Shown here: positions 18,729 to 22,244 of the stretch, piece after piece
Numbering within the stretch: position 1 is the stretch's first letter
Layout of the letters: each line of letters opens with the position of its first letter
The notes under the pieces: generated by a model
Told to the model about the DNA's origin: nothing
Databases searched by the model: none
The model's input: only the letters and a program-made list of their open reading frames with translations
Position numbers and translations under genes: made by a program
Assembly (NCBI GenBank): GCA_003696425.1
Contig: RFHI01000225.1
Span: forward strand, 1-36,576
Direction of reading: 5' to 3'
Length of the DNA: 36,576 bases
From: Candidatus Dadabacteria bacterium
GTDB lineage: Bacteria; Bdellovibrionota_C; UBA2361; J046

Positions 18729-18801
18729 GCGGGTGTAGCTCAGTTGGTAGAGCGCTTGCTTCCCAAGCAAGAGGTCACGGGTTCGAGACCCGTTACCCGC
18801 T
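18729..18801 (+). tRNA. tRNA-Gly(CCC)
   Basis: The 73-base sequence folds as a cloverleaf: acceptor GCGGGTG with TACCCGC (one G-U pair), D arm GCTC..GAGC, anticodon stem CTTGC with GCAAG around loop TTCCCAA (anticodon CCC, 18762-18764), and T arm ACGGG-TTCGAGA-CCCGT. The discriminator base is T. The 3' CCA is not encoded. It reads GGG glycine codons. It is single and lies 40 bases upstream of the permease gene. Confidence 0.96.
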
Positions 18802-21610: not shown

Positions 21611-21650
21611 AGTGCAGCAAAGCTTAGAATATTTTGGCTGCCGGGAAAAG

Positions 21651-21670
21651 GTAACCGTTCACGGGGGTTA
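21651..21670 (+). repeat. Left outer inverted repeat
   Basis: GTAACCGTTCACGGGGGTTA here matches, imperfectly and in inverse orientation, the sequence at 22133-22151 (read on the minus strand as GTAACCATTCAGGGGTAA). The core AACCGTTCAC recurs inverted at 21752-21762. The pair encloses the two-hairpin copies and gives the block 21651-22151 the look of a single element. Confidence 0.6.
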
Positions 21671-21766
21671 AAAGGGGTACAACCTTCAGTGGTTAAGTAC
21701 AAATCATCTGGTGGTTCGCATTGCCAAAACCTAGTCGGTTTTGCAGTTTTTGTGAACGGTTAATGT

Positions 21767-21879
21767 TTAAACCCTGCGCGAACCAGTTTTAAGCGAAGCG
21801 AAAAACTGGGGAGCATGCAGGGCGAGGACCATCTTGGCTTTAGCCAAGTGGGCCCGTAGAAGATAAAAACCCGGCGCAG
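21767..21879 (+). repeat. Two-hairpin structured repeat, copy A
   Basis: The unit begins AAACCCTGCGC and ends AAACCCGGCGCAG. Hairpin 1 has outer stem CCCTGC (21772-21777) with GCAGGG (21817-21822) and inner stem CCAGTTTT (21783-21790) with AAAACTGG (21802-21809), closing on AAGCGAAGCG. Hairpin 2 is CTTGGCT (21833-21839) with AGCCAAG (21842-21848). Copy B (21948-22061) is the same unit inverted, with paired base changes in both hairpins. Function unknown. Confidence 0.85.
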
Positions 21880-21947
21880 CACTGGAAAAAGTAGTTATTT
21901 CAGATACAAAGTGCCTATAATTGTTACCTTAACTTCCACACATCAGT

Positions 21948-22061
21948 CGCGCAGGGTTTAATTATTTTTTACGGCAAAACTTGGACTACGTCCAAGATTT
22001 CGCTCGCCCGGCAAGCAGATAAACTTTTCGCTGCGCTCAAAATTAATCTGCGCCGGGTTAC
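21948..22061 (-). repeat. Two-hairpin structured repeat, copy B (inverted)
   Basis: Read on the minus strand it aligns with copy A end to end: TAACCCGGCGCAG, a loop GAGCGCAGCG, GGGCGAG, ATCTTGG..CCAAG, CCGTA, then AAACCCTGCGCG. The outer stem of hairpin 1 is CCCGGC/GCCGGG (22052-22057 with 22007-22012) where copy A has CCCTGC/GCAGGG; inner stem CAGAT/ATCTG replaces CCAGTTTT/AAAACTGG; hairpin 2 is CTTGGAC/GTCCAAG (21980-21986, 21990-21996). Stems are kept while sequence changes. Copies A and B also form 12- to 14-base perfect inverted repeats at their ends. Confidence 0.85.
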
Positions 22062-22063
22062 CC

Positions 22064-22151
22064 CCGATTTGCTCCGCAAATCGACCCCTTAGGGGTTGGT
22101 AGACAACTGAATTGGTTAACCAGCATTATGGCTTACCCCTGAATGGTTACG
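22064..22151 (+). repeat. Right flank hairpins and outer inverted repeat
   Basis: CGATTTGC (22065-22072) pairs perfectly with GCAAATCG (22076-22083) over a 3-base loop; ACCCC (22084-22088) pairs with GGGGT (22092-22096); TGGTTAACCA at about 22113-22122 is a palindrome; and 22133-22151 is the right outer inverted repeat. On the left side CAAAACC (21725-21731) with GGTTTTG (21737-21743) is a comparable hairpin. No open reading frame of note lies in 21611-22244. Confidence 0.6.
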
Positions 22152-22244
22152 GGAAAAGAAATATCTGGTAAAATATAAATGGGTTGTCCGATATTTATTC
22201 TTCTGGTGACAGCTGAGCGGATTTGCTTATAAAATAGCTAAATT

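Follow-up and report, generated by a model that had tools for sequence, protein, structure and literature searches.

The window in this study is a stretch of 36,576 nucleotides from a Candidatus Dadabacteria contig (RFHI01000225.1), in which the only Rfam match at gathering score is a tRNA gene at 18729–18801. Between a pair of divergent genes in the window lies a mobile element resembling a MITE, here called the host element, and within it sits an inverted pair of structured units, A and B. Each unit has three stems (P1, P2 and P3), which were assigned by fold and covariation, and an inner repeat. The features of the locus are as follows, with scores from R1, a covariance model for which A and B were the sole input.

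21643–21650 and 22151–22158: the two copies, identical to each other, of the 8-bp target duplication of the host element, GGGAAAAG
21651–22150, plus strand: host mobile element, MITE-like, with ends GTAACCGTTCACGGGGGT ... ACCCCTGAATGGTTAC, interrupted by the inserted element
21768–21769: left flanking TA
21770–22058, plus strand: inserted element (left unit, 67-nt spacer, inverted right unit), not present in the sister host repeats
21767–21879, plus strand: unit A, the left end module (R1 match of 123.9 bits; homologous to B)
21772–21777 (CCCTGC) with 21817–21822 (GCAGGG), plus strand: P1 of unit A, enclosing P2
21783–21790 with 21802–21809, plus strand: P2 hairpin of unit A, nested in P1
21823–21856, plus strand: P3 hairpin of unit A, CGAG...CTTGGC/GCCAAG...CCCG
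21867–21879, plus strand: inner repeat of A (AAACCCGGCGCAG), which reproduces the right terminus (the start of B) and forms inverted repeat I2 with 22048–22059
21880–21946: the 67-nt spacer separating A and B
21947–21959, minus strand: inner repeat of B (AAACCCTGCGCGA), which reproduces the left terminus (the start of A) and forms inverted repeat I1 with 21762–21781
22061–21948, minus strand: unit B, the right end module (R1 match of 124.0 bits)
21972–22006, minus strand: P3 hairpin of unit B
22007–22057, minus strand: P1 of unit B (CCCGGC/GCCGGG), with P2 inside
22059–22060: right flanking TA, with GGGT-TA in place of the expected GGGTT-TA (one T fewer)

Comparison of the two units bore out the end-to-end alignment of the original prediction, in that A and B are homologous over ~110 nt each. 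The stem changes that it quoted are present (in P1, CCCTGC/GCAGGG in A vs CCCGGC/GCCGGG in B), and both units fold in the manner described, with P2 nested inside P1 and P3 forming a separate hairpin bordered by CGAG and CCGTA. Folding z-scores were −2.6 for A and −4.5 for B when folded as RNA, and about −3.0 and −3.1, respectively, when folded as DNA. Blocks of the form AACCC[T/G]GCGC occur at both boundaries of each unit, as had been noted, and we observed a further property of these end blocks, which is that they are swapped between the units. Unit A starts with ...CCCTGCGCGA and ends with ...CCCGGCGCAG, and unit B starts with ...CCCGGCGCAG and ends with ...CCCTGCGCGA.

The host element extends from GTAACCGTTCAC at 21651 to GGTTAC at 22150 and is unrelated to the ~290-bp element inserted in it. 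A search of the genome of origin (G000) with the flanks identified a host-repeat copy (G000:C40:6813-7051) in which the sequence at window position 21774 is joined directly to that at 22060 and the A/B pair is missing, and the insert-free stretch was also found in contigs C125, C130 and C127. The junctions in the window read TGTT-TA-AACCC...GGGT-TA-CCCCC; at the corresponding point, the insert-free sister copies have TTTTCACCCC or a similar sequence that lacks TA. As the host repeat exists without the insert in the same genome, we conclude that A and B together form one ~290-bp element inside an older element. The description of the locus as an inverted pair of homologous units therefore stands, except that these are the two ends of one element rather than two independent repeats.

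The host repeats constitute a family in their own right (window 21643–22158; G000 contigs C40, C125, C127 and C130), with ends GTAA[CG]CGTTCAC...GGTTAC and 8-bp target duplications. Duplications were seen at the C40 copy (TTAAACTG, 8/8 positions identical) and at the C125 copy (7/8). In its GTAA ends and 8-bp duplication, this family is reminiscent of IS66-family elements.

Copies, forms and ends in other genomes

In the 2.98-Mb genome of origin R1 matched only A and B, and searches of that genome by DNA, pattern and model found no copy beyond this pair. Relatives did contain the further copies that the original prediction had made its test, as these were found in five other genomes of the class. 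R1 matched 24 units in G004, 13 in G039 (Deltaproteobacteria SJ607, JADZAE01), one to two in each of G021 and G035, and two in G012 (CALJRW01), the last of which were missed under stricter filters and found in separate searches. The best of these matches had E values down to ~1e-15 and 52 of the 58 genomes had no R1 match at E ≤ 0.1, and the match between A and B is thus beyond chance. With a broader model (R1/R3 searches), 2, 36, 58, 6, 2 and 15 copies were counted in six genomes of six families. These carriers are 6 of the 46 genomes searched in the class, and the copy-rich ones are G004 (36) and G012 (58).

Many of the G012 copies were observed at contig ends (C59, C76, C137, C146, C157 and C160). 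The repeat probably breaks assembly there, and so the counts from draft genomes are likely too low. An exact-pattern scan of genome contigs returned 29 stretches, with recognizable units only in SJ607 and CALJRW01; the remaining stretches look like chance occurrences, mostly in coding-like DNA. The single match in a scan of viral contigs also looks like a chance occurrence, and the plasmid and phage collections contained no match to the element.

Copies took three forms. Convergent inverted pairs separated by a spacer, like that of the window, were often found in G004, G021 and G035. The commonest form among the copies that we read has one unit with a terminal hairpin after it (CTATACTCAAAAC...GTTTGGTATAG in G004 and TATACTGCTCGA...TCGAGCAGTATA in G012), and such copies are ~175–220 nt in these two genomes. 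The third form is a bare hairpin of ~45–65 bp that has the termini only (G039, G004 L191, G021 L178, G025 L183 and G012 L258), and in several genomes these solo hairpins are near-perfect palindromes. At one site in G004 (L190, G004:C9:83041-83060) two termini are joined directly as a 20-bp perfect palindrome, TAAACCCTGCGCAGGGTTTA, which is perhaps an extreme deletion product or an excision scar.

The boundaries of the copies are sharp, and similarity ends at TA-AACCC/GGGTT-TA or at TA-TACCC/GTA-TA. Elements end as TA-AACCC...GGGTT-TA in G004, G021, G035 and G039 and as TA-TACCC...GTA-TA in G012, and TA flanks nearly all copies (G004, G012, G021 and G039). The flanking sequence varies between copies wherever we looked at it. 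In G012, the copy L227 lies within a related unit, and the undisturbed site inferred from it has a single TA, as expected. In the genus of G021, orthologous intergenic sites share ~72% identity, which is too diverged for an exact target duplication to be read. Two G012 loci, L246 and L248, represent a related subfamily of units that starts with TATAGTCACCGATTTTGAG, has its own P1/P2 and P3 (TTTGGCTTTAGC) and adjoins normal units.

Covariation and the opposite-terminus rule

The matched stem changes that were first seen between A and B extend well beyond this pair, with strong stem covariation across genomes. We tested this on 34 units, aligned with MAFFT without fitting to any structure. In that alignment, P1 and P3 had standard pairs in 90.7% of cells, and double changes were seen in 71 cells, compared with 21 in shuffles and no more than 26 when the partners were slid. 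Covariation in the model-fitted alignment agreed with this result. A further model, R2 (RNAalifold on A5), was left out as it had lost P1/P2, probably because MAFFT misaligned P2. P3, with its CGAG and CCGTA borders, is conserved as a separate hairpin in six families. Mispairs in the unfitted alignment showed no excess of G-T (15) over A-C (17), and for this reason they do not clearly point to any one folded strand or, consequently, to an RNA. The corresponding counts in the model-fitted alignment were 33 and 17, although that alignment leans to its model. Selection on a folded form, as originally proposed, is likely, although correction templated by the hairpins could contribute to the matched changes.

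The swapped end blocks of the window also proved to be an instance of a wider pattern, as the repeat 3' of P3 in most cases reproduces the terminus of the other end rather than that of its own. In the window, A carries CCCGGCGCAG, the terminus of B, and B carries CCCTGCGCGA, the terminus of A. By eye, this rule was kept in the G004 pairs L080, L083, L086 and L198, in one arm of L084, in G035 and in G039 L052. In G012, the inner repeat and right terminus occur in two sequence classes that match within copies at 143 of 154 positions; of 20,000 shuffles, 43 reached 143, although class members are related and this is no strict probability. The rule was broken in one arm of L084, in G021 L053 and in a chimeric G012 copy (L250), and for G039 L058 no right terminus clearly matches. 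On one strand, the inner repeats could pair with the opposite terminus, and P1 with the near terminus.

Recognition of the ends and rival explanations

The units are homologous and dispersed, their ends are flanked by TA, their stems covary, copies nest, and the opposite-terminus rule holds with few exceptions. From this we infer an element that is mobilized in trans, through a single-stranded intermediate and by a particular class of enzyme. The original prediction had left the choice between a mobile palindromic repeat and an RNA. The former is favored by the copies, covariation, precise ends and nesting, and that the pair is a mobile element is close to certain; a functional RNA is not supported. 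Our explanation as a whole, in which the pair is a gene-less element with ends that are read as a folded single strand by an enzyme supplied in trans, is probably correct. Of its parts, we consider the recognition of folded single-stranded DNA ends to be evenly balanced, and the involvement of a Y1 enzyme to be a tentative suggestion.

We propose that a ~290-bp non-autonomous DNA element entered a TA inside an older mobile element, and that its two ends are inverted versions of one recognition module. The module comprises, in order, a terminus (TA-AACCCNGC...) pairing with an internal arm (P1, closing P2), then P3, and then the copy of the opposite terminus. Because of this layout, on either single strand the left terminus can pair in P1 and the right terminus with an inner repeat. 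A transposase supplied in trans would recognize this folded single-stranded form, and the internal arms would act as guides to the two points of cleavage, in a manner like that of HUH transposases (Y1, IS200/IS605, REP-type). We favor folded single-strand recognition because the conserved feature of the ends is the fold with its matched letters. Y1 transposase genes are present in all six carriers, which says little as they are present in 37 of the 46 genomes of the class. Around 26 Y1 loci from seven genomes, neither a flanking unit (E < 0.1) nor a terminus hairpin was found, a scan of six genomes for the termini 1–3 kb apart revealed no autonomous element, and we found no gene-bearing copy and no adjacent transposase.

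The TA flanks and terminal inverted repeats are compatible with a DDE transposase too, and the pair could be a classical MITE of a TA-targeting enzyme (IS630/Tc1-mariner) that binds the ends as double-stranded DNA, with the hairpins being incidental or subterminal binding sites. The TA that borders nearly every copy at either end, the inverted repeats TAAACCC...GGGTTTA and the short, internally deleted copies of ~45–60 bp are all as such a MITE would have them, although strand-specific insertion after TA would look identical to a duplicated TA target. TA is likewise found at the ends of the ERIC/RU-1 and Correia-type MITEs. However, an IS630-type DDE_3 domain (PF13358) was undetected in five of the six carriers, including G004 with its 36 copies, and the sole DDE_3 gene, in G012, has inverted repeats (ATATAGTAAAGACAGAAAG...) that are unrelated to the element, which weakens the case for a MITE of this type. 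Compensatory stem changes, and a single-unit form with a different hairpin as its right end, would also be unexpected, and we regard this explanation, although it is the main rival, as unlikely.

Alternatively, the element could be a palindromic mobile repeat in which the matched changes arose mainly from hairpin-templated correction at replication, and not from selection on the fold. Inverted repeats are known to acquire matched changes by quasi-palindrome correction, and the near-perfect palindromes of the solo hairpins would be in keeping with such a process. It accounts less well for the inner repeat of the other end, a third and non-adjacent sequence that changes with each P1; simple hairpin copying is insufficient here because the pairing of P1 with the inner repeat would be crossed, not nested. 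Nor would it lead us to expect that P3 stays a separate hairpin with its CGAG and CCGTA borders in six families. Overall, we think it distinctly unlikely that correction is the main source of the changes. A structured RNA or cis-regulatory element, spread within a repeat, would have the strong covariation and conserved loops and linkers that we observed, and the unit-plus-hairpin copies of G004 and G012, at ~175–220 nt, would make compact RNAs. However, Rfam 15 gave no match at the element at gathering or relaxed thresholds, the mispairs of the unfitted alignment lack a G-T excess over A-C, the pair lies in another mobile element between divergent genes, form and flanks vary among copies, and the bare hairpins are without half of the fold. 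These observations make an RNA very improbable.

Relation to known elements and significance

One close likeness is to the REPINs and BIMEs of RAYT (TnpA_REP) transposases, which are also inverted palindromic pairs with a short spacer, intergenic and mobile without genes of their own, and in which compensatory stem changes have been described (PMC3116915). Dispersed inverted pairs were observed in the window, G004, G021 and G035, and copy numbers reach 36–58 in G004 and G012. Short "double foot" versions of REPs that arose by central deletion have been described as well (PMC3116915, PMC2817692, PMC6006769). In contrast to REPIN units, which have 20–65 nt and one hairpin, the units described here have ~110 nt and two hairpins. 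The GTAG/GGAG tag at the hairpin foot is missing, with TAAA or TATA in its place 5' of P1, and GTAG/GTAA occurs in the units only 3' of P3. The TA flanks, the inner copy of the opposite terminus and the lack of any unit beside the Y1 loci searched are further differences.

IS200/IS605 and REP-type Y1 transposases read folded single-stranded ends, and guide sequences have been described (PMC6006769). Like IS200/IS605, the element has subterminal hairpins at its two ends, together with internal stretches that have the potential to pair with terminal cleavage sites. It differs in that its pairings are 6–12 bp, rather than tetranucleotides, in that the putative right-end guide is in the left module, and in having no linked transposase. 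PATEs of Haloquadratum are small, palindrome-ended, non-autonomous elements related to IS200/IS605. These are archaeal and longer than the element. The bacterial MITEs ERIC/RU-1 and Correia-type (PMC2229807) are similarly short, gene-less, bounded by terminal inverted repeats and mostly intergenic, but share no recognized sequence similarity with the element, which has multi-stem, covarying ends and no cognate IS630. In G012 and in one SJ607 copy, the P1 arms ACCCAAC/GTTGGGC fit the integron attC consensus RYYYAAC/GTTRRRY by chance. We rejected an attC identity because most copies, including those of the window and G004, have GCAGGGC or GCCGGGC and the GTT core is not conserved in the other genomes.

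By a limited search of open papers, this is apparently an undescribed family of small mobile DNA. Its kind, miniature mobile palindromic DNA, is known, and it is set apart by multi-stem ends of ~110 nt, by its TA flanks and by the inner copies that it carries of the opposite terminus. A more specific hypothesis, which we regard as rather doubtful, is that the family represents a separate single-strand transposition system with two guides built into each end, P1 for its own terminus and the inner repeat for the opposite one. If so, base pairing would fix both cleavage sites, in the paired form on whichever strand is taken and in the single-unit form on one strand, and the ends would be free to diverge provided that guide and site change together.

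Overall, the analysis points to a family with unusually elaborate folded ends that is scattered through one class of uncultured bacteria. As guide and terminus stay matched while their letters change, swaps of matched letters could test whether DNA pairing sets the cuts of a transposase. For genomes of this kind, covariation that appears to signal a non-coding RNA can instead belong to the ends of mobile DNA.
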